Assembly (NCBI GenBank): GCA_001971685.1
Contig: CP019326.1
Coordinates: 3,906,001 to 3,970,000 of the forward strand
DNA length: 64,000 nucleotides
From: Halomonas sp. 1513
GTDB lineage: Bacteria > Pseudomonadota > Gammaproteobacteria > Pseudomonadales > Halomonadaceae
Direction: 5' to 3'
Of this stretch, positions 2,963 through 62,098 are shown one piece after another; the first letter of the stretch is position 1; each line of letters starts with the position of its first letter. The position numbers were made by a program, and so were the translations under genes. The notes under the pieces are model-generated. The model was not told the origin of the DNA. It worked only from the letters and a program-made list of their open reading frames with translations, and searched no databases.

Positions 2963-4015
2963 TCAAGCCACGGTTACGCTCTTGTCCAGGTACACATCCT
3001 GGATGGCGTGGAGCAGCTCGACCCCCTCGGCCACCGGCTTCTGGAACGCCTTGCGCCCGGATATCAGACCCATGCCGCCGGCACGCTTGTTGATCACCGC
3101 GGTGCGTACCGCCTCGCCGAGGTCGGTGTGCCCCTTGGAGCCGCCGCCGGAGTTGATCAGCCCGGCGCGGCCCATGAAGCAGTTGGCCACCTGGTAGCGG
3201 GCCAGGTCGATGGGGTGATCGCTGGTCAGCTCGTCGTAGACCTTGTCATGGGTGTGGCCGAAGCCCACCGCGCGATAGCCGCCGTTGGTCTCGGGCAGCT
3301 TCTGCTTGACGATATCGGCCTTGAGGGTCGCCGCCAGGTGGTTGGCCTGGCTGGTGAGGTCGGCGGCGACGTGATAGTCGCTGCCGTCGTGCTTGAAGGC
3401 CGGGTTGCGCAGATAGGCCCAGAGTACCGTGACCATGCCCAGCTGGTGGGCGCGCTCGAAGGCCTCGCTGATCTCCATGATCTGGCGACGGCTCTCGTGG
3501 GAACCGAAGTAGATGGTCGCGCCTACCGCCACACAGCCCATGTCGTGGGCCTGCTCGACATCGGCGAACAGCGTCTGGTCGTAGATGGCCGGGTAGCTCA
3601 GGGTCTCGTTGTGGTTGAGCTTGAGCATCATCGGGATCTTGTGCGCGTAGCGCCGCGCCACCGACGACAGTACGCCCAGCGTCGAGGCCACGCCGTTGCA
3701 GCCGCCCTCCAGCGCCAGCTCGACGATGTTGGCCGGGTCGAAGTACCGCGGGTTGGGCGCGAAAGAGGCCCCCGCCGAGTGCTCGATACCCTGGTCTACC
3801 GGCAGCAGGCTGAGGTAGCCGGTGCCCGCCAGCCGTCCGTGATTGAAGAAGGCTTGCAGGTTACGTAGTACCGCCGGGCTACGATCGCTGTCGGCCATCA
3901 CCCGGTCGATGAAGTCGGGGCCGGGCAGATGCAGACTATCGCGGCGCACCCCCTGGCAGGTGTGGCCAAGCAGGCTGTCGGCGTCGCTGCCGAGCAAGGC
4001 GACGATATCCGTCAT
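2963..4015 (-). CDS. Class I fructose-bisphosphate aldolase (DhnA/FbaB type)
   Basis: Schiff-base aldolase splitting fructose 1,6-bisphosphate, with no metal needed. The product is 350 residues. Features matching archaeal-type class I aldolases are the [11 protein letters not shown] segment near residue 70, the [10 protein letters not shown] segment, in which a Lys probably lies in the barrel, and the C-terminal NSGGGSKG phosphate-binding segment. The start at 4015 has GAGGA upstream; a longer reading to 4117 lacks support. It is convergent with tkt and follows the Hsp20 pair on the same strand. A class II aldolase gene lies at 8633-9697, so the cell appears to carry both mechanistic classes. 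The catalytic lysine was not assigned by alignment. Confidence 0.92.
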
Positions 4016-45503: not shown

Positions 45504-45827
45504 ATGAAATACATCTTCGAAGTGCATATCCGCGACGGCTACCGCGCCGAGGACTACGCCGAGGCCTGGGTCCGCGCCAGCGAGATCATCCAGCAGGCGC
45601 CGGGGGCACGCGGCACCGAACTGCACCGCAAGATCGGCGACCCCAGCACCCTGATCGCCATCGCCCACTGGGACAGCAAGGCCAGCCGCGACGCCATGGA
45701 AGCCCAGCCCAACCAGCAGGTAAAGGAGATCATCCGCTCCGCGGCGCCCTGCTGCGAGATCCGCCTGATCGGCGAATTCGACGAGCCCGAGTGGGTAGTG
45801 ATGCCGCCAAAAATCCAACTAAACTAA
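45504..45827 (+). CDS. Antibiotic-biosynthesis-monooxygenase-like dimeric alpha/beta-barrel protein
   Basis: 107 residues. The pattern YIFEVHIRDGYRAEDYAEAWVRAS, then GTELHRKIGDPSTLIAIAHWDSKASRDAM, fits a one-domain ABM or stress-responsive alpha/beta-barrel fold. The function is unknown; such proteins may be small oxygenases or binding proteins. AGGGAG lies before the ATG. It precedes the broken HicB-like gene. Confidence 0.7.
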   Translation: MKYIFEVHIRDGYRAEDYAEAWVRASEIIQQAPGARGTELHRKIGDPSTLIAIAHWDSKASRDAMEAQPNQQVKEIIRSAAPCCEIRLIGEFDEPEWVVMPPKIQLN

Positions 45828-45853
45828 GGTGGCCACAATGACAGGGGAGCGAC

Positions 45854-46181
45854 ATGGTCAACCATACGTATTACGCCTACCGCATCCGCTGGTCCACGGA
45901 AGACGTACAGTTCGTCGGCCTATGCACCGAGCTACCCAGCCTTTCATGGCTGGCCAACAGCCAGAGAGAAGCCCTCGACGGCATCGTGGCGGTAGTGGCC
46001 GACGCGGTGGCCGATATGCAAGCTGCCGGGGAATCACCTCCCCAGCCGCTGGCGTAACGTCATTTTTCGGGCGTTTCAACGTCCGCATCCGTCAGATGAG
46101 CACCGTAAGCTAGCCATCAAGGCCGGCGAACAACCCATCAGCCTCAATCAGCGGATCAGTGGTCGCTCGTCCAAGCTCTAA
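45854..46181 (+). pseudogene. Broken HicB-like antitoxin gene
   Basis: The first 67 codons encode a HicB-type N-terminus (YYAYRIRWSTEDVQFVGLC, PSLSWLANSQREALDGI), ending at TAA (46055-46057). The rest of a HicB family protein can still be read beyond it: RHFSG in the same frame, then after a lost base near 46070 RFNVRIR, then after another near 46093 DEHRKLAIKAGEQPISLNQ to a stop at 46179-46181. Thus one nonsense change and two frameshifts interrupt a gene of about 109 codons. GGGGAG precedes the start. No HicA toxin is present. Confidence 0.75.
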
Positions 46182-46356
46182 TCACACCGCCACCCCAGGG
46201 CCGACCTGGCTCAGATCAACTCGTTACCGCTTTGTGGCTCAGCCCCGCGCATGCGGGGATCGGTACCCGCCCGCCCCGTTATCGCCGGCAGTGAGCGGTT
46301 GAGCCCCGCGCATGCGGGGATCGAGTCGACACCAAGGACATGGACGCCCTCGCGTT

Positions 46357-46446
46357 CGGTTCATCCCCAGGCCTGTGGGGATCGGCTCGAGGGGATCTTC
46401 TACAACCTGAAGACCACCGGTTCATCCCCACGCCTGCGGGGATCGG
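46357..46446 (-). repeat. First block of variant (type B) CRISPR repeats
   Basis: Repeats 3 and 4. Both carry the type B tag ATGAACCG. Repeat 3 has the A-T stem pair but a C-C mismatch next to it. Repeat 4 has a G-T wobble at the same pair, intermediate between types A and B. The short 31-base spacer follows repeat 4. Confidence 0.9.
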
Positions 46447-46782
46447 CACAGGCGGGCCGTCCAACTGAACAGCAGGCCGGTTGAGCCCCGCGCCTGCGGG
46501 GATCGGAGCGTGCGGATCAGCTCGGCGTAGCGCTCGCGCGGTTGAGCCCCGCGCCTGCGGGGATCGGCTCGCGCACGAAGGCCACCCGGGCTGACATGAC
46601 GGTTGAGCCCCGCGCCTGCGGGGATCGGGAGCCCCACCACGACGGCACGCCTCATTGGCACGGTTGAGCCCCGCGCCTGCGGGGATCGGTTCTCGGACTC
46701 GACGGCATCGAGGATCAGGGCCGGTTGAGCCCCGCGCCTGCGGGGATCGGTGGTCATTTACAGCGCTCCGAGATTTGTCCCG

Positions 46783-47299
46783 CGGTTCATCCCCACGCCT
46801 GTGGGGATCGGCCATCGCTTCGCGTCGTGCTGGCCTCCTGCGTCGGTTCATCCCCACGCCTGTGGGGATCGGTCTTCACTTCCCTGGCCAGCCCTACCCG
46901 CTGCCGGTTCATCCCCACGCCGGTGGGGATCGGGCGTTGTTGACGCTGACGAAGCCTATGCCGCCCGGTTCATCCCCACGCCTGTGGGGATCGGATCATC
47001 GACTGGGCCACGCGCCGCATTACAGGCGGTTCATCCCCACGCCTGTGGGGATCGGGCTGTAGACCTCGCGAGACTGCCTCCCGACTACGGTTCATCCCCA
47101 CGCCTGTGGGGATCGGATGTCGAGCTGTAGGCGGGCGGCGTTCAACTCCGGTTCATCCCCACGCCTGTGGGGATCGGATGTCGAGCTGTAGGCGGGCGGC
47201 GTTCAACTCCGGTTCATCCCCACGCCTGTGGGGATCGGGTGGTCTTGCCACAACCTCGAGCCCTGCATGGCGGTTCATCCCCACGCCTGTGGGGATCGG
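46783..47299 (-). repeat. Second block of variant (type B) CRISPR repeats
   Basis: Repeats 10-18, all with stem CCCCAC/GTGGGG and tag ATGAACCG. Repeat 12 (46905) also has a loop change. The block is bounded by type A repeats on both sides (repeats 5-9 and 19-96). Confidence 0.95.
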
Positions 47300-50200
47300 A
47301 GAAACGGCCGCCGTCTCGGTGATGCCTGGCACGGTTGAGCCCCGCGCCTGCGGGGATCGGACGCGCACGTAGCGATAGACGGCGTCGCTGGTCGGTTGAG
47401 CCCCGCGCCTGCGGGGATCGGGGGGATGACGGGCAGGGTCTCGCGTATCCGGCCGGTTGAGCCCCGCGCCTGCGGGGATCGGGGCAGTAGGCACGTACCT
47501 TGTCCGCCGCGGCGCGGTTGAGCCCCGCGCCTGCGGGGATCGGCGTCGAGCGAGTTAAAGAAACGGCCCGGAAATCGGTTGAGCCCCGCGCCTGCGGGGA
47601 TCGGGGGTGCAAGGGTCAACTACCGCAGCGTTATTGCGGTTGAGCCCCGCGCCTGCGGGGATCGGTCCCAATGAAAGTTTCCGTCTGACAGAATAGGCGG
47701 TTGAGCCCCGCGCCTGCGGGGATCGGTACAAGAACTCGATGAAGGCGGCGGCCTCGGACGGTTGAGCCCCGCGCCTGCGGGGATCGGAACCAGTGATTGT
47801 CGCCCATCAGGAACTGAGACGGTTGAGCCCCGCGCCTGCGGGGATCGGGCGGACGGTAACTGTTTTGTCAGTCATATCGGCGGTTGAGCCCCGCGCCTGC
47901 GGGGATCGGGTCTACTAACCTGGCGTCGTGAGCACCCTCGGCGGTTGAGCCCCGCGCCTGCGGGGATCGGCGCTGCTGCAGCTTGCGCGATCGTAGGTCG
48001 ACCGGTTGAGCCCCGCGCCTGCGGGGATCGGGCCTTATCAATGTGACGCTCACCGATATCGGCCGGTTGAGCCCCGCGCCTGCGGGGATCGGCTTGCTTC
48101 AATTGGAGACAATATCGCGGATATCGGTTGAGCCCCGCGCCTGCGGGGATCGGCCATACTTCAATTGCCAAAGTTTCTAGGGAATCGGTTGAGCCCCGCG
48201 CCTGCGGGGATCGGTACAATCCGCGCATGGATACGTGGACGATGGACGGTTGAGCCCCGCGCCTGCGGGGATCGGCATCTTGATACAGAATTCAATAGCT
48301 TGTATGGCGGTTGAGCCCCGCGCCTGCGGGGATCGGCGATTTCATCTTGTTCTCGATTCTCACTGAACCGGTTGAGCCCCGCGCCTGCGGGGATCGGGCT
48401 TGATTCGTAACAACGCTAATCGCTGTTCTAGGTTGAGCCCCGCGCCTGCGGGGATCGGTTCATCCTATTTGGATAAATAAGAATATAAAACGGTTGAGCC
48501 CCGCGCCTGCGGGGATCGGATCACCCATCTGTGCCAGAACCCCTGTGTGAGCGGTTGAGCCCCGCGCCTGCGGGGATCGGTACAACAAATCGACTGACAA
48601 TGAAATCATCGGCGGTTGAGCCCCGCGCCTGCGGGGATCGGACTGTAACAGCAACTCATCGATTCGGTGGAGTCGGTTGAGCCCCGCGCCTGCGGGGATC
48701 GGTCTATTGCTAGGGATAGAATCATTGGAATCACCGGTTGAGCCCCGCGCCTGCGGGGATCGGTACAACAAATCGACTGACAATGAAATCATCGGCGGTT
48801 GAGCCCCGCGCCTGCGGGGATCGGCGCAAGTATGGGCGCGATAAGGATACCGGCAACGGTTGAGCCCCGCGCCTGCGGGGATCGGCGGGCCGCAACGGAT
48901 GCAGTATTTGCTGACGGCGGTTGAGCCCCGCGCCTGCGGGGATCGGATTCCAGTCTACTGTTACTTTCCCTTTACTTTCGGTTGAGCCCCGCGCCTGCGG
49001 GGATCGGTGATTATGATAAAGTCAATGTAATCTCAATATCGGTTGAGCCCCGCGCCTGCGGGGATCGGCCAAGCTGAGCGAGGATCATCGCCACCTCGGC
49101 CGGTTGAGCCCCGCGCCTGCGGGGATCGGTAACATCTCTGGAGTGATGGTCATTCGACCAACGGTTGAGCCCCGCGCCTGCGGGGATCGGAATGATGCCG
49201 ACTGAGGCGCCCTCAGATCTCTCGGTTGAGCCCCGCGCCTGCGGGGATCGGCGACGTTCCGATTTAAACCGACTGACGGCGACCGGTTGAGCCCCGCGCC
49301 TGCGGGGATCGGAAAGCCCGCACGATGGCGGGCAGGGGTTGGGTCGGTTGAGCCCCGCGCCTGCGGGGATCGGTCGCGATTCTTCTCATAATACTCGGCC
49401 CAACTCGGTTGAGCCCCGCGCCTGCGGGGATCGGCTTCAGGATCTTGGAACTTCCACCATTTGAAGCGGTTGAGCCCCGCGCCTGCGGGGATCGGCTTGT
49501 CGCATGAACTCACTGTCATTGATGAGCCGGTTGAGCCCCGCGCCTGCGGGGATCGGCGTCTACAGCTGATCAATATTAGGCCCCGTCGCGGTTGAGCCCC
49601 GCGCCTGCGGGGATCGGAAGATCAGTCATTATATGAAAGTTACAAAGATCGGTTGAGCCCCGCGCCTGCGGGGATCGGTGGAGGGACTGCGACGACTCTG
49701 TTGCGATTGGCGGTTGAGCCCCGCGCCTGCGGGGATCGGACAGTGAGACGACGATTGTAGTCTGTCTCTGTCGGTTGAGCCCCGCGCCTGCGGGGATCGG
49801 ATAAAGTCATTAAGAAAGCAATCATGGAAGAACGGTTGAGCCCCGCGCCTGCGGGGATCGGGAATGAAGTCTGTAGGAGCCATTATGAAGCGTCGGTTGA
49901 GCCCCGCGCCTGCGGGGATCGGGTCGCCGATCAGGCTCGAGACGAGGTTGGCCGCGGTTGAGCCCCGCGCCTGCGGGGATCGGGCCACGGACGGGGCCTT
50001 TTCTATGTGCGTATCCGGTTGAGCCCCGCGCCTGCGGGGATCGGGCTAGGCCTGCGATCATCAGGGCGGTCGTCGGCGGTTGAGCCCCGCGCCTGCGGGG
50101 ATCGGTCAGCGCAGCGTGCAACTGGTGTCGGCATGAGCGGTTGAGCCCCGCGCCTGCGGGGATCGGGGCGCGAACCGATGCCGAGATAGTCGAGCAGGCG

Positions 50201-52057
50201 GTTGAGCCCCGCGCCTGCGGGGATCGGAATGCGGGCGCTACTGCGGAGCATGGGCGAGACGGTTGAGCCCCGCGCCTGCGGGGATCGGCCGATATTGACG
50301 ACCTCGCCACGAGGCACTTGAGGTTGAGCCCCGCGCCTGCGGGGATCGGTGCATGAGCTATTGCCGCTGGAGCAGTGACGACGGTTGAGCCCCGCGCCTG
50401 CGGGGATCGGCAGAATGGCGTCGCGGGTGAGGGTCATTACCACGGTTGAGCCCCGCGCCTGCGGGGATCGGCTACGTGTGACCGTGCGATTGCCTAGCGA
50501 TGCCGGTTGAGCCCCGCGCCTGCGGGGATCGGCAGGGCGGCAAAGACGCCATCAGCGACGACGCCGGTTGAGCCCCGCGCCTGCGGGGATCGGAGGAAAT
50601 CACTTCTCTGATATTGGTCTGATTGCGGTTGAGCCCCGCGCCTGCGGGGATCGGACGGTACTTTCATTACTGACAACGTGTTCAACCGGTTGAGCCCCGC
50701 GCCTGCGGGGATCGGTACAACAAATCGACTGACAATGAAATCATCGGCGGTTGAGCCCCGCGCCTGCGGGGATCGGGGGGTCACGCGCTGACCAGGGACG
50801 AAGCCGTCCGGTTGAGCCCCGCGCCTGCGGGGATCGGTCATGCATCCTCCTGGCCAGGGCTTGGGGCGGCGGTTGAGCCCCGCGCCTGCGGGGATCGGAG
50901 ACTAAAGAAGATGTAGAAACATTAATGAATCGGTTGAGCCCCGCGCCTGCGGGGATCGGGCGAGGATATGCTGGCCGTCCACCTCCTCGGCCGGTTGAGC
51001 CCCGCGCCTGCGGGGATCGGGACGTGCCATGCAGCGCGGAGCCTCGCATGGTCGGTTGAGCCCCGCGCCTGCGGGGATCGGCTGACGATCGATAATCTCA
51101 AGCAGGGCGGCGGCGGTTGAGCCCCGCGCCTGCGGGGATCGGTTCCAGGCCGACTTGAGCCGCTCCCAGCTGTCCGGTTGAGCCCCGCGCCTGCGGGGAT
51201 CGGTTGAGGGGTTATCGAGCATCGCCGGTGTCTACCGGTTGAGCCCCGCGCCTGCGGGGATCGGGTGTCAGCCCACTGCCAAGGATCCCGGTTCCCCGGT
51301 TGAGCCCCGCGCCTGCGGGGATCGGACCCACCAACCATAAAGGCGCTCGACTGAAGGCGGTTGAGCCCCGCGCCTGCGGGGATCGGGCGGCCGAGTACCT
51401 GCGCGGCAAGAGCGGATACGGTTGAGCCCCGCGCCTGCGGGGATCGGATTAAAGATATGCCGGAAGAGCATCTTGAACACGGTTGAGCCCCGCGCCTGCG
51501 GGGATCGGACCACGGCGCACGCTGCCGAGCAAGCCGCCGCCGGTTGAGCCCCGCGCCTGCGGGGATCGGTGGCCTCGTCCATGCCATCGGTCAGCCCCTG
51601 GCGGTTGAGCCCCGCGCCTGCGGGGATCGGCAGCCTTTTCGCCCGATTCTTTTGATATGTGGCGGTTGAGCCCCGCGCCTGCGGGGATCGGCGTTAGCGA
51701 TATTTGGCAAGGACAATAAAGATCGGTTGAGCCCCGCGCCTGCGGGGATCGGGCCCGATGGGCCCGGACCTCTCGCCTACCGACCGGTTGAGCCCCGCGC
51801 CTGCGGGGATCGGGCATCAGGGCATTAGTTTGTTACCCGGCATGGCGGTTGAGCCCCGCGCCTGCGGGGATCGGTTGACATGACCACTACACCCCGCTAT
51901 GAAGTTCGGTTGAGCCCCGCGCCTGCGGGGATCGGGTGCCGCTGGCGAGGCCGCTTTTATTGCTCAGCGGTTGAGCCCCGCGCCTGCGGGGATCGGTCTA
52001 GCATCTTCTCGACAGTGAATCGAATAATCGGTTGAGCCCCGCGCCTGCGGGGATCGG

Positions 52058-52167
52058 ACTAATTGTAGATAGTTGATCTACAAAAGGAAAATCGCCAGCA
52101 GAAATTCCACCAACGATTTTGCCTATTTTTTGTACAGACTAAATTTTTAAAGATCTAGGATTATCAA
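52058..52167 (-). promoter_or_regulatory. CRISPR leader
   Basis: AT-rich stretch between cas2 and the first leader-side repeat, strongly different in composition from the array and cas genes. It contains an inverted repeat TGTAGAT-N5-ATCTACA (52064-52082) touching the array. An IHF-like partial match overlaps it at 52066-52078, 8 bases from the repeat, where E. coli has its IHF site. A full IHF consensus match TATCAACTATTTA lies at 52162-52174, over the cas2 stop. Confidence 0.8.
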
Positions 52168-53381
<1,214 letters not shown>

Positions 53382-53408: not shown

Positions 53409-54107
53409 CTATGGCCGGCGAATCAGTATCAAGCCACAGCCGAAGGCCTTGGCGCGCCCGACGCCTTGCGCCAAGGCCTCGATCAAGCGCCCTGGATCAG
53501 TGACTTCCAACAGGCCTTCATAATCTACAGTGGAGAACTGGATGGCATCACGCCGACCAGGCTTGTGTAGCGAATGCTGACGGTAGGCCCCAACCTCCGG
53601 ATCCACCGGCAGCCTAAAGCCCAGCGCTTCCGCCCTCGTCCGCAGCCAGTCTCGCGCCGCCTGATCCATCGCCTGGACGCATTCGGGGCTAGTTCGCTGA
53701 CCGGGAGGGAAGGGCTTCTTCGCGGCCATAAGCACATCGCTACGCGGCGAGTGCCTGGCCCCCTCCACTCGCCGCGCCACCGTCGGGTTCGCACGCAGCC
53801 GGAATGCCAGTTGCTCGCCTTCCCTCAGCGTCGGCGCAAAGGGCTTGCACTGCACATCGAGCAGGCCCGCAATGGGGATGGGCTCCCGGTCGGAGAGTAC
53901 ATAGAAGAGCGGTAATCCCTTCGGCGGCTTGCCCTGCTCGGTGTCCTCCTCCATCTCCTGACGAAACAGGAAGGGACGAGCACCATCGTGGCCAGGAAAT
54001 GCCTGCCAGAGCAGTTGGTGAGCACCATAGGCGCCACCCTGCATAACGTCGAACAGGGCTTCGCGAGAGAGGCCATTGAGATCGACGCGAACACGTGAAA
54101 GAAACAT
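53409..54107 (-). CDS. cas6e: CRISPR-associated endoribonuclease Cas6e (CasE)
   Basis: Cuts the repeat hairpin to give crRNAs, 232 residues. Double ferredoxin fold; features are SREALFDVMQGGAYGAHQLLWQAFPG with the conserved His near residue 27, the Arg-rich LAFRLRANPTVARR, and the glycine-rich loop GVGRAKAFGCGLILI at the C-terminus. The ATG at 54107 shares one base with the cas5 stop, so the longer reading to 54194 is rejected. It has to handle two repeat types in this array. Confidence 0.95.
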   Translation of the reverse strand: MFLSRVRVDLNGLSREALFDVMQGGAYGAHQLLWQAFPGHDGARPFLFRQEMEEDTEQGKPPKGLPLFYVLSDREPIPIAGLLDVQCKPFAPTLREGEQLAFRLRANPTVARRVEGARHSPRSDVLMAAKKPFPPGQRTSPECVQAMDQAARDWLRTRAEALGFRLPVDPEVGAYRQHSLHKPGRRDAIQFSTVDYEGLLEVTDPGRLIEALAQGVGRAKAFGCGLILIRRP

Positions 54108-54850
54108 TAGTGTCCCTCCTCTACTCGCACGAAGCGCCGGAACTCGGTGCGCGGACCAAACTGCCAGCGGCGCCGGTTGAGCGGCCGATCCCACACATCG
54201 CTAGACTCCACAGCATGCTTGTCACCATCCAGTAGCGCGGCTCCTCCCTCCCAGCAGTACAGTGCCTCTCCGGTCAGTCGCAGGGCCGTTTTCTCACCGG
54301 AAATCACCGCCTCGAACTCGCTATCGAGGGCTTCGCGAAGGTGCGTGGCTTCGACTCGCCTAGGTGCCAGTGGTGCTGCCAAGGGGCAAGACTTGCGCCC
54401 CAGGTAGAGCGAATAGTGGGGGCGCTGCAACGCTGCCTCGAGCGACTCTAACGTGTAGGCAGAACCTTCAGAGAGCCATACCGCAACGGTCCAGAGACCG
54501 TCGCAGCGGTAGTCGCGGCTAGAGAGAATGGTATTGATCACCTTCTCTGAAGCATTCAGTTCATCGCGGCGCGTGCGATAGCTCACCTTGGCCTGAGATC
54601 CTGGAACCTGAGCAGTGTGGTAGTCGCGCAAGAGAGTACCGGGAGAACGTTGCTTGATGGCAATACGCACGCTCTCACCCAAGGCCTTCTGGCCAGCATC
54701 GTCCTCTCGCTTGATGCCAAGAGCTGCACCCAGCAGCCCCAAGATCGCACCACGCCCGGGATGCGTCGCAGTAGGGCGCGTCTCACCTACCGCCGCCTCC
54801 CCCCAACTAGCGAGTGGGGCATAGAGCCGAAAGACAAGATATTCCGTCAT
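54107..54850 (-). CDS. cas5e: CRISPR-associated protein Cas5e (CasD)
   Basis: Cascade subunit that binds the 5' tag of the crRNA, 247 residues. RAMP fold; the start MTEYLVFRLYAPLASWGEAAVGETRPTATHPGRGAILGLLGAALG is characteristic, and HYSLYLGRKSCPLA is the late family motif. AAGGAG precedes the ATG. It overlaps cas6e by one base. Type A and B repeats would present it with different tag bases. Confidence 0.95.
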   Translation of the reverse strand: MTEYLVFRLYAPLASWGEAAVGETRPTATHPGRGAILGLLGAALGIKREDDAGQKALGESVRIAIKQRSPGTLLRDYHTAQVPGSQAKVSYRTRRDELNASEKVINTILSSRDYRCDGLWTVAVWLSEGSAYTLESLEAALQRPHYSLYLGRKSCPLAAPLAPRRVEATHLREALDSEFEAVISGEKTALRLTGEALYCWEGGAALLDGDKHAVESSDVWDRPLNRRRWQFGPRTEFRRFVRVEEGH

Positions 54851-54859
54851 AGCGGCTCC

Positions 54860-55933
54860 TTAATGGTCGGCGTTGAGAAACTCAATCAGCCCATCGAGGT
54901 TACCCGAGGCGACCTCGCCCTCGAGCTTAGGGCCCGGGTAGCCAGCCAGGGCAGATACGATATAGCGCTGATCAGCTCCTGCGCCATAGGCCCCATCGAA
55001 GGCGTTCACCTGGTTCTCGAGCCGTTCCACGGCATCACCGGCCTGATCCTGACCGGCCACCGGCCGCAGAAAGGCTACCGACAGCGAGCGGGGCTGCTGG
55101 TCGCCCTTCTCAGCCAATACATAACTGGCATGGGCACGGGAGCCGAAGCTGTTCTGCTTGCCCTTCGGTGAGGTGCGTACGGCGGCCTCCACCAGGGCGG
55201 CAATGGCCCGCTCGGCCAGCTCGGCATCACCGTTGAGGTTATCGATCAACTGCTGCCGATCAATACAGATGTAGCTATAGAACAGCCCGGCCGCGAAGCC
55301 CGCCTCGCCGACGTGGGCCGCGCCTCGATGCACGTCGCCGGTATTGAGATCGTCAACGGCGGTGAAATAGTCATCCTCCACCTCTGCCGCATGGACGGTG
55401 ATGGCATGCGCGACCTGACAGGCCGCCTCGACGTTGTACTCCGGCACCGCCGCCAGCATGCGACCGAACAGAGCGATATCCGCGGCGGCCGGCTTATGGC
55501 GCAGGAGACCCAGGTCGCCCTTTTCGGGTGCTCGTTTTTCGTCGGCCAGCGTCTCGACGAGATCATCAACCGCCTTCTGCTCCTCAGGGCCGATATGCAC
55601 CAATTGACTGGTCGCCAACTCGCCCTTGGCCACATCGCCGAATACCCTCGCGATCTCCGTGGCCCAGGCCCGGGCGTCCTTGTCACTTACGCCTTTCTCT
55701 AGCAGGCGCTTCTCCGCCTCGAGGCCCACGCGCTTGGTACGCTGGCCACGGTGCAGACCCAATGCCTCCTCGAACAGGGCAGAGGTACGCCAGGTACGCT
55801 TGAGGCTCTGGGAAGAGACGCGCAGGCGCTTGGCACCGCCCATGATGGCGGTCTTCGGCCGCCCCAAGTCGTCACGGTTGAGGTTGGCCGGGGGATAAGA
55901 GGTCAGCAGATGCAATTGAATAAAGTGGCTCAT
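54860..55933 (-). CDS. cas7e: CRISPR-associated protein Cas7e (CasC)
   Basis: Backbone subunit of Cascade that coats the spacer RNA, 357 residues. The opening FIQLHLLTSYPPANLNRDDLGRPK, then MGGAKRLRVSSQSLKRTWRTS, and the later DDLNTGDVHRGAAHVGEAGFAAGLFYSYI are family signatures. It lies 9 bases before cas5e and 36 after casB. Confidence 0.96.
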   Translation of the reverse strand: MSHFIQLHLLTSYPPANLNRDDLGRPKTAIMGGAKRLRVSSQSLKRTWRTSALFEEALGLHRGQRTKRVGLEAEKRLLEKGVSDKDARAWATEIARVFGDVAKGELATSQLVHIGPEEQKAVDDLVETLADEKRAPEKGDLGLLRHKPAAADIALFGRMLAAVPEYNVEAACQVAHAITVHAAEVEDDYFTAVDDLNTGDVHRGAAHVGEAGFAAGLFYSYICIDRQQLIDNLNGDAELAERAIAALVEAAVRTSPKGKQNSFGSRAHASYVLAEKGDQQPRSLSVAFLRPVAGQDQAGDAVERLENQVNAFDGAYGAGADQRYIVSALAGYPGPKLEGEVASGNLDGLIEFLNADH

Positions 55934-55969: not shown

Positions 55970-56626
55970 TCAGTCGCCGGCGTGCTGATAGCGGGACAGC
56001 GCCTCGAAATAGTCATTGGCCCAAAGGAAGCCGAGCCGACCAGATGGCTGGGGTGCCATTTCACCCTGCGATTCACGCCACCAGAGAGCGATATTGTCGG
56101 CTAGGTAAACAACGCTGACGTCCCGCTTATCGATCAGCGCCAAGGCACGCCGTAGTCGCTGCACCAGCTCTTCCGGTGCCTGACAAGTCAGCAGCTGCTG
56201 GAAGCGCAGCTCGCTCATATGGGGCTTACCGGTTTCCTTCTTCTGTTTGCCTAGCTGGCTACCCAGGCTGGCATTGGGGCTTTCCGCCCTGACTTCGGCC
56301 AGCACCAGCGCGACGCAAGCCCAGGCCTGCAGCCGAAGGTTGCGTCGCTTCTCACCTCCCCTTTCGGACTCTGGCAACCGATGCCAGAGATGCCGAAAGG
56401 CCTCGGTCAGCATGGCGGCCTCTGGCGTTTCACAGCGCCGTAGCATGGCTCGCACTCCCTTAGGCCAGGGGGGGGCTGAGGTAACGGCCTTAAGCTCCTC
56501 GGCGGGTAACGTCAGGCGCTGCCACCAACACCGCACGGCAAAGGCTTCTTCTGGACTGATGGCCCGTAGGTATTCGGTCACCACAGGCGTCTTTTTCTCC
56601 GTTTGCGGCTCTGCTGTTTCACTCAT
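55970..56626 (-). CDS. casB: Cascade small subunit Cse2 (CasB)
   Basis: All-helical small subunit, 218 residues. It has the family pattern WWQRLTLPAEELK, RAMLRRCETPEAAMLTEAFRHL and LRFQQLLTCQAPEELVQRLRRAL with VVYLADNIALWW. The ATG overlaps the casA stop (ATGA). The protein stabilises the target strand in Cascade. Confidence 0.93.
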   Translation of the reverse strand: MSETAEPQTEKKTPVVTEYLRAISPEEAFAVRCWWQRLTLPAEELKAVTSAPPWPKGVRAMLRRCETPEAAMLTEAFRHLWHRLPESERGGEKRRNLRLQAWACVALVLAEVRAESPNASLGSQLGKQKKETGKPHMSELRFQQLLTCQAPEELVQRLRRALALIDKRDVSVVYLADNIALWWRESQGEMAPQPSGRLGFLWANDYFEALSRYQHAGD

Positions 56627-58305
56627 GGCGCGACGTCCTCCGTAGTTGTGCTTTCCTTGCCACCCGCTAACGCGAACCCTCCTTTCTTGGCGAACTGGGT
56701 GATGATCTTGCTACCCTTGCTGCGTCCGGAGAGCCAGGCCTGCAGATTGCGACGGGCCCCAGTGACGCGCTTCATATCCAGCTCAGCCACGGGACCACTC
56801 AGTGCCTGCGCATCGAACAACCGCAGGGCTTCCCGTTGGAGTCCGCGATACCAGACTTCGGCGATGTCTGTCGGCATATGAGTGTCCTCTCCATCGAGCA
56901 GAGCCTGCTGCATGCCAAACAGGGCATGGAAGAAGCCGGCCTGGGTCGCCTCATAGAAATGGGTATCGATGGGACTCATGTCCCCCTTGGCATCGGCAGG
57001 ACGCGAGAACCAGGCGACCTTAATCTGGTTGCGCACCATCCACGCCACCTGGCGAGCCAGTTCGGTCACGTCCTGAACCCAGGATCTGAGCACTTCCTGC
57101 TGCTCAGGCGGCACCGCCACCAGCGGCATTTCTACGCCATACCAGCCTCGTGGCTTCATATTGTCCATGTCGTAACCGAAGGCCCAGAGCCTCGCCTGCC
57201 GGAGCAGCGGCTCGAATGCCTCGCCTTCGCGTCGCGCCTGTCGATTTGCCGGCACCTTGCCATACAGGTAGTCATGAACCACCGCTGCCGGCAGGGCACC
57301 ACTGTTTTCAGCATCATCGAGCACCAGGTTCGACCAGTGCCGATACCCCAAGCCTCCTGGCTGCCCCTTGGTGGACAGCGGCGGCTCGCTGGGCTTCTTG
57401 GGGTCACGGCGATAGGGGGTCAAAGGGTGCTGCCAAGGGCCGTCATAATTGGCGCCATAGTTCTTGGCGCGAATCTCGGCAACAGATCGAGCGGTTTCCC
57501 GCCCGCAGAGATCGCATCGGCAGGGGGTGTCCTCGAAGAGCAGTCGAAAACGACGCGGCATGGACCAGTAGGCATGCAGGGCATGCATGTCATCCGGGAC
57601 GACTACGGCGCCTTTCTTGTCGCTGAGCTGGGTTGGCCCCATCCAGGGAAAGAGGGTGTCGTCATCCGAGCGCAGTGGCTCGATCTTGCCCTGCCGTGCA
57701 AGAGATTGGCTCGGCAGCACATTCAGCCATAGCCGCTGCCAGAGGCTGGCCTGAGCATCCTCCGGCAATACCAGGGTCGTCAGCGGGCCACCGCCCCGGA
57801 GCCCCACCCGATAACCCGCACCCCCGGATGGTGCATTGATCTGCATGGTAAACAGCGCCATCGCCGCACAGTCAGAGCAGATTGCCTCGACACGCCCCCG
57901 CTTGACGAAGTGATCGGTATTGAGCTTGAGGCCATTGGCACCAGGGGAGTCGATCAGCAGCCCCGAGACAGACGTCGGCTTGGCATCCTCCAGCGGATCC
58001 CGGTCCTGCATAAAGCGCGGGCCATCACCCTCCAATTCGAAGGCCGTCGCCAAAGGTGCAAAGGCTGCCTCAAGTGCCTCACGACTCGGTGGCTCGGCAG
58101 CACGATCCAGCCAGTCATCGTGATCCTTGGGAGGCAGCGCGGTCTGCAGCAGGCCGATCAGCCACTGGTAAGCAGCGCCCTGGAAATCCGCCCGGGGAAG
58201 AGCCAGGTCGACGACCTCAGGGTCGGCGATGGCCAAGGGTGAGCGGTAGGTGATGCTTCCATCCCAGGCATGGAAGGGAAGCCATCGGTCATGCAGGAGA
58301 TTCAT
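56623..58305 (-). CDS. casA: Cascade large subunit Cse1 (CasA/Cas8e)
   Basis: Recognises the PAM and recruits Cas3, 560 residues. It begins MNLLHDRWLPFHAWDGS, the typical Cse1 start, and has FMQDRDPLEDAKPTSVSGLLIDSPG. Two Cys pairs (CSDC and CDLC) may bind zinc. The C-terminal helical bundle holds MKRVTGARRNLQAWLSG. GGAGG precedes the ATG at 58305. It starts 16 bases after the cas3 stop. Confidence 0.95.
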   Translation of the reverse strand: MNLLHDRWLPFHAWDGSITYRSPLAIADPEVVDLALPRADFQGAAYQWLIGLLQTALPPKDHDDWLDRAAEPPSREALEAAFAPLATAFELEGDGPRFMQDRDPLEDAKPTSVSGLLIDSPGANGLKLNTDHFVKRGRVEAICSDCAAMALFTMQINAPSGGAGYRVGLRGGGPLTTLVLPEDAQASLWQRLWLNVLPSQSLARQGKIEPLRSDDDTLFPWMGPTQLSDKKGAVVVPDDMHALHAYWSMPRRFRLLFEDTPCRCDLCGRETARSVAEIRAKNYGANYDGPWQHPLTPYRRDPKKPSEPPLSTKGQPGGLGYRHWSNLVLDDAENSGALPAAVVHDYLYGKVPANRQARREGEAFEPLLRQARLWAFGYDMDNMKPRGWYGVEMPLVAVPPEQQEVLRSWVQDVTELARQVAWMVRNQIKVAWFSRPADAKGDMSPIDTHFYEATQAGFFHALFGMQQALLDGEDTHMPTDIAEVWYRGLQREALRLFDAQALSGPVAELDMKRVTGARRNLQAWLSGRSKGSKIITQFAKKGGFALAGGKESTTTEDVAP

Positions 58306-58321
58306 AGATACCCTCCAGAAG

Positions 58322-61009
58322 TTATTCCTCGTTTGCTGTGCTATGTGGCCGAAAACCCAGGCCCCACTGGCCATCGTATTCACAGCTCGTGTCAGTCTCG
58401 GCCAACCACGGCTGCACAAAGCGCAACGCCTTGTAGCGCTCCTGCAGGGCTTCCCACTGGGCTTGATACTCTCCCGGCAAGCTAGCCAGCTTAGCGGCCT
58501 GGCTCTGGCGCAACTTGATCTGGCTGAGCATATCGGCATGCCGCGCATCCTCGGCCCAGAGCCGCAAAGCACCATCGGCGTCACACTTAAGCAGTGCCAC
58601 ATTGACTGTTGGCTCATCGACCAGGCGAGTGCCGATCTCCTGCTCCTCCTGCCACTTGTGGCGATCCCACACGTAGCCGGCCTTGAGCTCCAGGGCATTG
58701 AAGTTGGCCATCGAGGTCGCGACCCTCTGTATCCCTTTCTGCTCCCAGCGCGCTCCCTGCAGTCCGTCCGGCACAAGGTCGATCACTTCACCGTAGACAC
58801 TCTCGATCAGCAGGCGCGCCTGCTCGGGCATGCGGATTCCCCCCAGCTCACGCAGGACTCGCTGGGTCAGCCACAGGAGGGAGGTATCCCGATAGACGGC
58901 ATTCGTCCCAGGTAACGTACGTTTCAGCCAATGTTCATCCGGTGCGTCTGCCCACTCGGGGGCCAGCACCTGGAGAACGGGTGGCCGGCGCGGGCCACGG
59001 ACATGGCGTTGAAGCCGACCGGCACGCTGAATCAGCAGGTCAATGGGAGCGAGATCGCTGATCATCAGGTCGACGTCACAGTCCAGAGACTCCTGGAAAA
59101 CCTGAGTGCTGATCAACACCTGCCCACGACGGCACTCCGGCGTGGACGTCTTGCCCAGTCGCGCGAGGACGTCGGACTCGATCCGTTGGCGATCGAGCAT
59201 GGCAAAGCGGCTATGGAACAGCAGGCAACACTCCGGCTCGGGGTGACGCTCACGCACTGCCTCAAAGGCACGAATGGCATCGTCTACGGTATTGCGCACC
59301 CAGGCGACGCACTCGCCGGCCGCTGCCGCGGCCAGAATAGTCTCGATGGCCTCCGTTTCTTCGGTCAGCCAGTCAATATCAACCTCACGGGACACTTCGG
59401 GCCGCGAGCCCAGCGCCACCTCACGAGACGCGTCCACATCAATCTGCGTCAGCAGCGGAAAGTCACTACGCTCAAGGGCGGCTGGCTCCCTATCCAGCCC
59501 GGCACGCCACGCCGCTGCCAGCGACTCGCGCATTGCATTCGGCAGAGTCGCTGTCAACAGGATGGCGCTGCCGCCCTGGCGGGCGTGATAGCTCAACAGC
59601 TGGTTGAGCAGGGTCTGCATATAGTGGTCATAGGCGTGCACCTCATCGACGATCAGCACCTTGCGCGCCAGCCCAAAGAGGCGCAGCGACTGATGACGGA
59701 ACGGCAACGCACCCATCAGCGCCTGGTCAATGGTGCCCACACCCACCTCGGCCAGGAGCGCCTTCTTGCGCGAATCGGCGAGCCAGCGGTTGCAGTGGGC
59801 GGTCGCCGTGGCCTCGCCTGGCTCATAGTCCCGGTCGCCCGGCTGCGGCCGATCGATCGCCAGCGAGAAGGATTCGTTGAGCCGGCTGGCACCATGGGCC
59901 AATACGAAGGAGGGGTGGGAATCGGCCGAAAAGAAACGCCGATGCAGCAGGCCGAGGCGCTCATACATGGCATTGGAGGTCGCCATGGTCGGCAGCGCGA
60001 AATAGAGACCTTCGGCATGCCCAGCCGCCAACAGTCGCTGGGTGAGGATGCAGGCCGCTTCGGTCTTTCCGGCCCCCGTAATGTCTTCGAGGATGAACAA
60101 CTGAGGCCCAGGCGAGATCGGCAGCGACTCGGCCTCGCACTGCAAGGGAGTCGGCGTGATCGGCCCGCCATCGAACCATTGATCGAGCCCGCTGTAGGCA
60201 AGCGGCTCCGGCAATCGATCGAAGCCGGTATCACGCAGTGCCGCCTCGGCGCGCGGCAATGCATAGCGCTCCCAATACTCGGCGATGGGCATCTCCTTCT
60301 CGCAGTAGCGGAAATGCTCCTGATTCGAGCCCAGCCAGTCGCTGAGTGTCGCCCAGCCGGCGATGGTCCAGCTCAGCGTCAGGAAGGCTTTTAGCCACTC
60401 ACTCGAGACAAGCGTTTCCACCGGCCACTCAACGTCGATAAGGCCGGCCCACTCCTCGATGAACTGCCTGGCGGCTTCCAGATCGTCACCATCGGTTTCC
60501 TTGACGAAGAACTGCTCGAGCCGCAGCTGCTCCGCCTCGACCGGCTGGCCATGGTGACCGAAGAAGGGAATCAACAATGCCTGCATGGCCTTACGGCGCT
60601 GCTTTTTCTCCGAGCGCTCGAGGGACGCCTCGGACCAACGCAGAGTCCCGTTCTCCAGCCAATCAAACCAGCACTCCTGCCACAACAGAGCACCCAGCCG
60701 GTCATGCCGCACGGTGTACTCGTATCGCTCGACGGGTGGAACCAGCCTCACACTCTCCGGCCGGGCCAGCCCCTGGAAGGCTCGGGAGAACTTGCCAAGG
60801 TCATGCAACCCCAGCAGAAACACGAAGAAGCGGCGTAGCGCCTCGGGCGATATATCAAGGCGGGCCGCCAACAGCTGCGTCAGCGGACGCTCAGGAGCAA
60901 GCAAATACCAACCGACTGCTGCCACATCCAGGCTATGGTAGGGCAGTAGATGACATCGATCCCCTGCTTCAGCTGGTTTAGCCTTACCCCAGTACAGGTA
61001 GTAACTCAT
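58322..61009 (-). CDS. cas3: CRISPR-associated helicase/nuclease Cas3
   Basis: Degrades target DNA after Cascade binding, 895 residues. The N-terminal HD nuclease domain has His in CHLLPYHSLD and GLHDLGKF (HD at 69-70). The SF2 helicase has Walker A ITGAGKTEAA near residue 310, DEVHAYD near 453, LLTATLP, and motif VI QRAGRLQRH near 663. A C-terminal domain follows. The start at 61009 begins MSYYLYWGKAK with GGAG upstream. It is first in the operon and divergent from the WYL regulator. Confidence 0.95.
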   Translation of the reverse strand: MSYYLYWGKAKPAEAGDRCHLLPYHSLDVAAVGWYLLAPERPLTQLLAARLDISPEALRRFFVFLLGLHDLGKFSRAFQGLARPESVRLVPPVERYEYTVRHDRLGALLWQECWFDWLENGTLRWSEASLERSEKKQRRKAMQALLIPFFGHHGQPVEAEQLRLEQFFVKETDGDDLEAARQFIEEWAGLIDVEWPVETLVSSEWLKAFLTLSWTIAGWATLSDWLGSNQEHFRYCEKEMPIAEYWERYALPRAEAALRDTGFDRLPEPLAYSGLDQWFDGGPITPTPLQCEAESLPISPGPQLFILEDITGAGKTEAACILTQRLLAAGHAEGLYFALPTMATSNAMYERLGLLHRRFFSADSHPSFVLAHGASRLNESFSLAIDRPQPGDRDYEPGEATATAHCNRWLADSRKKALLAEVGVGTIDQALMGALPFRHQSLRLFGLARKVLIVDEVHAYDHYMQTLLNQLLSYHARQGGSAILLTATLPNAMRESLAAAWRAGLDREPAALERSDFPLLTQIDVDASREVALGSRPEVSREVDIDWLTEETEAIETILAAAAAGECVAWVRNTVDDAIRAFEAVRERHPEPECCLLFHSRFAMLDRQRIESDVLARLGKTSTPECRRGQVLISTQVFQESLDCDVDLMISDLAPIDLLIQRAGRLQRHVRGPRRPPVLQVLAPEWADAPDEHWLKRTLPGTNAVYRDTSLLWLTQRVLRELGGIRMPEQARLLIESVYGEVIDLVPDGLQGARWEQKGIQRVATSMANFNALELKAGYVWDRHKWQEEQEIGTRLVDEPTVNVALLKCDADGALRLWAEDARHADMLSQIKLRQSQAAKLASLPGEYQAQWEALQERYKALRFVQPWLAETDTSCEYDGQWGLGFRPHSTANEE

Positions 61010-61089
61010 TGCTGACTCCCTGTCGTTATTCTTTGTTACGCACCATCTAAGCACCCTACTCTTTCAGTCACCACCACTGTCCAAGAAAC

Positions 61090-61114: not shown

Positions 61115-61153
61115 AGATAGATCATGGCATTCAGAGAGTCGCAAGGAGTTCGC

Positions 61154-62023
61154 ATGCTCGATACTGCACCACTACCCTGGGACACCCTCGCCCGCTACCG
61201 GCTAATTGAAGTCCTGGCGCTATGGGAGGGTCGGGTGGTTGCATCACAGATCGGCGAGGCTTTCGGCATCGGCCGCCAGCAGGCACAGAAGGTGCTGCGC
61301 CGCTATCGTGAGCTGGTTCCCGGGAACTTGGTCTATGACGAGTCGCGCAAAGGGTTTCTTCCCACCGATGGATTCATCGGCCATTTCACCCAAGGTCGGG
61401 TTGAAGAGTATCTACATCTGCTGGGGTCGGGGCAGCAGCTGGACTCACCATTTGCAAGCCTTGGGCTCGGGGCCGCCGATACTGAGTCGTTGCCACTGCC
61501 AAGTCGCCAGGTGTCACCTGACGTGGTACGCGAGTTGGTAAAAGGCTCACGCCAGCAGCTACGGCTGGAAGTGTCCTACGCTTCCTTTACCAACCCGCGG
61601 GGCGAAGAAAGAATCATCGTGCCCCATACCTTGGTATATGCTGCAGGGCGCTGGCATGTAAGGGCCTTCTGTGAAAAGCATTTGTCATATCGTGACTTCG
61701 TATTGAGCCGTTTCCGCGATATTCCAGAGCCTTGTGGAGCGATGCTGGGAGAGCATGGCCGAGGAAACGATAGCGACTGGCTAACCATCGTCAACGTAAA
61801 GCTAATCCCCGATCAGCGCCTGACTGAGCCAGAACGCCAGCTAATAGCGGTTGACTACGCAATGACAGCTGGGACATTGGAGCTGTTATGTCGTGGCCCA
61901 CTGGTGCTCTATGCCCTGCGTGAATTGGGAGTAAACCCCAACCATACCGAGACCGACCCTCGCGCCCAGCAGATTCAGATCGCCAATGCGGCCGAGCTCA
62001 AGCACTGGATCCGCTGGGACTGA
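61154..62023 (+). CDS. WYL-domain transcription regulator, BrxR/CapW-like
   Basis: 289 residues. An N-terminal winged helix-turn-helix (WDTLARYRLIEVLALWEGRV, FGIGRQQAQKVLRRY, PGNLVYDESRKGFLP) is followed by a WYL domain (residues about 140-205) with the ligand-site pattern RWHVRAFCEKHLSYRDFVLSRF and a C-terminal WCX-like region. This order and the PGNLxYD and GF/YxP motifs match BrxR/CapW repressors of BREX, CBASS and other defence islands. The ATG at 61154 with AAGGAG upstream is preferred to 61124. It is divergent from cas3, so it is probably a regulator of the cas operon and of itself. Confidence 0.85.
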   Translation: MLDTAPLPWDTLARYRLIEVLALWEGRVVASQIGEAFGIGRQQAQKVLRRYRELVPGNLVYDESRKGFLPTDGFIGHFTQGRVEEYLHLLGSGQQLDSPFASLGLGAADTESLPLPSRQVSPDVVRELVKGSRQQLRLEVSYASFTNPRGEERIIVPHTLVYAAGRWHVRAFCEKHLSYRDFVLSRFRDIPEPCGAMLGEHGRGNDSDWLTIVNVKLIPDQRLTEPERQLIAVDYAMTAGTLELLCRGPLVLYALRELGVNPNHTETDPRAQQIQIANAAELKHWIRWD

Positions 62024-62098
62024 CCACCTACCACTCACTTGCATCCCTTTCCCCACCTCAGTACGGTTATTAATTGAACATTCAATAAAGGATTCACC

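Follow-up and report, generated by a model that had tools for sequence, protein, structure and literature searches.

The clustered regularly interspaced short palindromic repeat (CRISPR) array of Halomonas sp. 1513 alternates between two repeat types, and we read it as a mosaic in which recombination among type I-E alleles repeatedly replaced the leader-side part, the blocks then growing by adaptation (a reading to which we assign a probability of roughly 60%). The array occupies positions 46235–52057 on the minus strand of the 64,000-nucleotide stretch analysed (the window; contig CP019326.1, positions 3,906,001 to 3,970,000), and comprises 96 repeats, each 29 bases long, with 95 spacers between them. 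Repeat mapping gave 46235–52056, and position 52057 is counted if the first C of the repeat, present in 95 of the 96 repeats, is included. A search of the genome, a single contig of 4.13 Mb, with the patterns of both types and up to three mismatches allowed, found one such array. From its repeats and the adjoining genes it is predicted to be a single type I-E array that is probably functional.

Type A (CCGATCCCCGCAGGCGCGGGGCTCAACCG) and type B (CCGATCCCCACAGGCGTGGGGATGAACCG) differ only at positions 10, 17, 22 and 24 of the 29 bases, and positions 10 and 17 pair with each other in the predicted folds, in agreement with the original prediction, which was made from the sequence alone. Numbered from the trailer (oldest) end, the repeats form the following blocks.

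46235 to 46323, minus strand: repeats 1 and 2, the oldest, of the A-like type C with a loop change (GCATGCGC); repeat 1 is degenerate
46357 to 46445, minus strand: repeats 3 and 4, B-like; repeat 3 is type B with one loop change, repeat 4 is type B with a G10·T17 wobble pair
46478 to 46749, minus strand: repeats 5 to 9, a block of five type A repeats
46783 to 47298, minus strand: repeats 10 to 18, a block of nine type B repeats, with one loop change in repeat 12
47332 to 52057, minus strand: repeats 19 to 96, the newest block, of 78 type A repeats

The prediction had thus identified the two types correctly, but its order of B followed by A gives way to five blocks, A-like, B-like, A, B and A. 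Its statement that repeats 19–96 are all of type A holds, repeats 37 and 68 departing from A at the last base only.

At the junction of repeats 9 and 10, and again at that of repeats 18 and 19, all four positions switch in one step, with a return to an earlier type. As a study of Escherichia and Salmonella arrays reports (Touchon and Rocha 2010, PMC2886076), every new repeat is made as a copy of the one next to the leader, so that each block records the type that stood beside the leader when its spacers were taken up. Read in this way, the leader-adjacent type changed at least four times, from A-like to B, A, B and A, and the whole type changed each time. As the types lie in contiguous blocks among the 18 oldest repeats, and the pattern recurs in other genomes, this is no chance effect. 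Stepwise mutation had been proposed with repeat 4 as the intermediate, and that repeat does combine the G10·T17 wobble pair with a B tag. It lies, however, one base from B, with three further changes before repeat 5, and a stepwise course would also have to account for four simultaneous changes, for more than one return and, in genome G064, for returns across eight positions. Contradicted by the block order, stepwise mutation is scarcely credible.

Type A had further been taken as the derived type, but A-like repeats stand at the oldest end in the window (repeats 1 and 2), in G012, in G060 and in a remnant in G035 described below, the terminal repeats being partly degenerate. G060, a genome of the same genus, has type C as its standing repeat; type C lies one base from A, and its identity with the G060 repeat is hence weak evidence when taken alone. 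The suggestion that B represents the common type is correct for the tag, which is the commonest among 50 leader-proximal repeats (ATGAACC, 18 arrays), but not for the A–T stem, which is rare (2 of 50).

Apart from the last base, only repeats 12, 4, 3, 2 and 1 depart from A or B, as expected if the far end of the array is the oldest. In type I-E systems, the final repeat base derives from the protospacer-adjacent motif (PAM) of the incoming spacer. Of the 3257 repeats in 51 arrays, 94 have a last base other than G (A, C or T), and all 94 are singletons. The last base probably enters together with the spacer, and repeats 37 and 68 are therefore not true repeat variants.

Alternation of this kind was surveyed in 52 arrays of at least four repeats, drawn from 53 other loci and the window; loci L118 and L119 had no usable array, and the 52 include L148, which was read in the wrong orientation. 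An array was called mixed if it held two or more types at least two positions apart, each in a run of at least two repeats. Nine of the 52 arrays are mixed, the window included, and four of the nine return to an earlier type: the window, with its distinct blocks and returns, G156, G064 and G128 (where the return is a single repeat). The types of G156 are three differences apart and follow the order T0-T1-T0-T1-T0; they recur as the standing types in G063 and G177, which share its genus code. In G064, types eight differences apart follow the order T0-T1-T0-T1. Neither the 78 A and nine B repeats of the window nor the blocks of G156 include a stray repeat of the opposite type, and G064 has only repeat 73, which lies beside the terminal repeat. 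The array is long and repetitive and is represented by an assembly only, without reads, so that an assembly artefact or the false joining of separate arrays could be suspected; but the 61-bp period is regular (one spacer is a base short), nearly all spacers are unique, and independent mixed arrays exist elsewhere, that of Franzmannia pantelleriensis among them. We regard an artefact as very unlikely.

The operon upstream of the array is a complete type I-E one, in the order cas3-cse1-cse2-cas7-cas5-cas6e-cas1-cas2 (61054–52168, minus strand). The features surrounding the array are listed below; ORF denotes open reading frame.

45504 to 45827, plus strand: conserved flank gene with an ABM domain
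45723 to 46114, plus strand: segment sharing 79% identity with the flank next to the type I-C array of G035
52058 to 52167, minus strand: leader, about 110 bases
52168 to 52464, minus strand: cas2e
52461 to 53381, minus strand: cas1e
53409 to 54107, minus strand: cas6e; the ORF extends to 54194, and the family match begins at residue 30
54107 to 54850, minus strand: cas5e
54860 to 55933, minus strand: cas7e
55970 to 56626, minus strand: cse2
56623 to 58302, minus strand: cse1; the ORF extends to 58776, and the family match begins at residue 159
58322 to 61054, minus strand: cas3
61124 to 62023, plus strand: gene with a WYL domain, divergent from cas3

All eight genes of the type I-E set (cas3, cse1, cse2, cas7e, cas5e, cas6e, cas1e and cas2e) are present. 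Apart from Cas3, the proteins exceed the NCBIfam cut-offs of their I-E models, seven in all; Cas3 itself satisfies the core helicase and HD models and misses the equivalog NF007248 (472 bits against a cut-off of 569). The 29-nt repeat with a hairpin and an 8-nt tag ending in ACCG is that of type I-E, as are the spacers (expected length 32–33 nt with an AAG-like PAM), 94 of 95 being 32 nt long and the PAM, read from spacer 7 only, being AAG or AAA.

The array-proximal 80 or so bases of the leader are 90–100% identical in G012, G060, G161, G153 and G023, and the types of the first repeat differ among these genomes. Behind nearly the same array-proximal leader stand type A in the window, type C in G060 (G–C stem, tag CTCAACCG) and, in G023, the repeat CGTTCCCCACAGGCGTGGGGATGAACCG, which has a B core (A–T stem, tag ATGAACCG). 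Repeat type is thus separable from the leader. Within cas2e, at 52285–52344, eight consecutive informative sites resemble G060 and the following nine resemble G012. Runs tests gave p=0.0005 for the 187 informative sites from cas1 to the leader, and p=0.007 for the 41 sites in cas2 and the leader.

Each of the five genomes searched within the genus has the flanks of the locus next to a CRISPR-Cas system (in G012 the flanks lie on two contigs), and the contents of the site differ. The window and G012 hold similar type I-E systems (Cas6e 93% identical), G060 a divergent type I-E system with type C repeats (Cas6e 65%), G035 a type I-C system and G049 a type I-F system. On the trailer side, homology ends at 45806–45809 in all four comparisons with other members of the genus. 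Outside its I-C array, G035 retains an I-E flank shared with G012 (94.5% over 1809 positions) and, at 3177–3250 of locus L171, a solitary A-like I-E repeat with a degenerate tag and, after it, a fragment resembling the I-F repeat of G049; the flank segment homologous to window positions 45723–46114 comes next. The fragment has a local score of 27, which no shuffle among 5000 reached but which 3 of 1667 background segments drawn from the window did. The G035 locus may hold the remnants of two earlier systems, an I-E repeat and perhaps an I-F one. From the varied subtypes and the G035 remnants we infer that cassettes are exchanged at this site and that trailer-end repeats can outlive them. In G012 the WYL-domain gene is matched, while in G035, G049 and G060 the matching flank starts only at 62038; this gene, a candidate regulator, probably belongs to the I-E cassette of the window.

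The two repeat types had also been attributed to Cas6/Cas5 recognition variants that either coexist or succeeded each other. Coexistence does not hold, since the whole genome has one Cas1 and one Cas6e match; with the single array, the same counts rule out two co-resident CRISPR systems. The predicted folds of A, B, the wobble repeat and type C share a six-pair core stem and a four-base loop (−13.9 to −14.3 kcal/mol). In the B fold, tag bases lengthen the stem by two A–U pairs; in the A fold, two more pairs form beyond a mismatch. These models give no sign that either type is incapable of forming the Cas6e hairpin. G023 and G060 are sisters in the Cas6e tree (support 100/99), with 95.2% identity in Cas6e and 84.8% in Cas5e, despite their different repeats. 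G116 has one cas operon flanked on one side by an array of about 40 A–T-stem repeats and on the other by one of 43 G–C-stem repeats, and this operon may serve both. Together, these two cases indicate that one Cas6e lineage can accompany both repeat types.

A succession of recognition variants, in which a different Cas6e/Cas5e allele laid and processed each block and the current Cascade works best with type A, finds backing in the turnover of cassettes and in the different cas alleles that species carry at the site. As a succession it is plausible, but G023/G060 and G116 make two recognition variants unnecessary. Cas5e gives a weaker hint towards such variants: in G156, G063 and G177 (loci L110, L112 and L113), Cas6e is 97% identical in all pairs, whereas Cas5e is 94% identical between G156 and G063, which share the leader-proximal tag, and 67% identical across tags, to G177. 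Among pairs with at least 88% Cas6e identity, which are not independent of one another, the mean Cas5e identity is 82% for the nine that differ in tag and 89% for the 50 that share it; yet same-tag pairs with Cas5e identities of 77–80% occur, the pair of the window and G012 among them. The Cas5e association may serve as a lead, and we consider a succession of recognition variants unlikely as the cause of the blocks. Separately, loci L112, L113 and L110 present a possible swap of Cas5e accompanying the CRISPR RNA tag. In the Cas6e tree, the five rows nearest to the window have A-type arrays, with one 5′ base changed in G161. Changes of repeat type, scored on whole repeats of 50 arrays, number 31, 29 and 31 on the Cas6e, Cas5e and Cas1 trees, counts that have no control and decide nothing.

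Replacement of the leader side is favoured by the alternation of types, its recurrence in other arrays, the turnover of cassettes, the separation of type from leader, the A-type arrays nearest to the window in the Cas6e tree, the cas2 tract and the lack of isolated converted repeats. Under this mechanism, homologous recombination with related I-E alleles would swap the first repeat or repeats together with the leader, and sometimes cas genes. Older spacers would stay on the trailer side through each swap, the block would then extend by normal adaptation, and one Cas6e would cut both repeat types. More tentatively, the array may be a stratigraphic record, each block having been laid by a different incoming cas/leader allele and the spacers of these predecessors still being used by the present Cascade; this stronger form is possible but doubtful.

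The main rival for the switching step is gene conversion: the first repeat would be overwritten with the sequence of an older one from inside the array and would go on to found a new block. Conversion would explain why recurring types are already present in the array, and a lone G–C-stem repeat inside the A–T-stem array of G116 is what it might leave behind. It would also explain clean junctions: of the 11 type switches in three arrays, 9 lie exactly between repeats, against about five (a hand estimate) expected for evenly spread crossovers. Buried repeats should, however, be hit as well, and the 78 A and nine B repeats of the window include no lone repeat of the opposite type; the first origin of B would also be left unexplained. 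On balance, gene conversion appears improbable.

The excess of clean junctions is one of several observations that weigh against replacement of the leader side by recombination. Hybrid repeats are few and of mixed orientation: repeat 4 of the window and repeat 67 of G064 fit a crossover, and a wobble repeat in G012 has the opposite orientation. Repeat 4 may be the product of one point mutation, and on these two grounds it was dropped as proof of a crossover. None of the spacers of the window is shared with the 53 other loci, which represent one genome per species and include some incomplete arrays (that of G012 is gapped). No I-E remnant was seen at the G049 locus, and the exact 28-base B sequence was found only in the window and in F. 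pantelleriensis. Exchange between CRISPR arrays is described as rare by Kupczok et al. (2015), as cited in PMC11472070 (2024).

The principle is already known, and the alternating array of the window represents a variant of unusual clarity. In Escherichia and Salmonella, Touchon and Rocha (2010, PMC2886076) describe runs of inherited repeat variants, exchange of cas genes at the same locations, CRISPR that may outlive cas genes and a degenerate last repeat, and propose recombination at CRISPR. The window resembles these arrays in its variant runs, in the replacement of cas genes at a fixed site and in its degenerate last repeat. It differs from what they report in that types four positions apart (eight in G064) alternate within one array, and in that I-E, I-C and I-F systems are found at a single site within a genus, where an I-E remnant persists beside I-C; these are the additions made here. 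The same question of array recombination was addressed in the 2015 study, as far as its citation in PMC11472070 indicates; here, repeat types serve as markers that require no donor. The system shares with the E. coli-subtype I-E (Cascade) the eight ordered cas genes, the 29-nt repeat, 6-bp stem, 8-nt tag and 32-nt spacers, and the AAG PAM of one spacer target, and differs from it in the tag of the main block (CTCAACCG), in having two repeat types per array and in the WYL gene beside cas3. No literature on this case, Halomonas and Halomonadaceae included, was recognised among the matches listed, a coverage outside which most subscription journals fall.

If arrays are spliced in this manner, an incoming CRISPR-Cas allele can inherit the older spacers of the resident instead of starting with an empty memory. 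Repeat type would then reveal recombination even where the donor is unsampled and a comparison of spacers overlooks it. The genus offers a natural series, with four kinds of system at one site in five genomes, for the study of replacement, of the retention of old repeats and of the tolerance of Cas6e and Cas5e for different repeats.

Spacer 7 (46629–46660), which lies in the five-repeat A block, matches phage replication (Rep) genes. It has three mismatches to phage F108 (Peduoviridae), with the PAM AAG, and one mismatch to an IMG/VR contig (L178), with the PAM AAA, the latter a credible match. Comparison of the whole array with phages returned 11 records, all for spacer 7 and with E-values of 0.1–0.5, which are weak alone. 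Comparison with plasmids returned 77 records, of which 73 have 60–80% identity and resemble other repeat arrays. IMG/VR was scanned with exact 20-base seeds for spacer 7, for a spacer present in triplicate and, from the B block, for spacers 10, 11, 12, 13 and 15/16, with 14 and 17 outside the scan; with these seeds, the five B-block spacers had no target in IMG/VR. These scans gave two matches in all, that of spacer 7 and one to spacer 12, which was rejected as chance, having 11 mismatches over 32 positions; spacer 7 is thus the only spacer for which a credible target was found.

The I-E-like locus of G116 (L179/L180, C6:36000-70000) combines a Cas1 and a Cas2 that are 91% and 89% identical to those of the window with Cas6, Cas7 and Cas3 at 28–36%, and its effector and adaptation modules appear to be of different origin.

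The only spacer of the window that is not 32 nt long, one of 31 nt at 46447–46477, lies exactly at the junction of wobble repeat 4 and A repeat 5. The triplicate is one 32-nt spacer that occurs as spacers 39, 42 and 74 (48581–48612, 48764–48795 and 50716–50747), and spacers 15 and 16, in the B block, are identical. The oldest 20 spacers (46263–47514) are rich in G+C, with means of 64–65% per ten, and spacers 31–60 have means of 41–47%. This shift, which lies off any type boundary, is taken as a change of spacer source.

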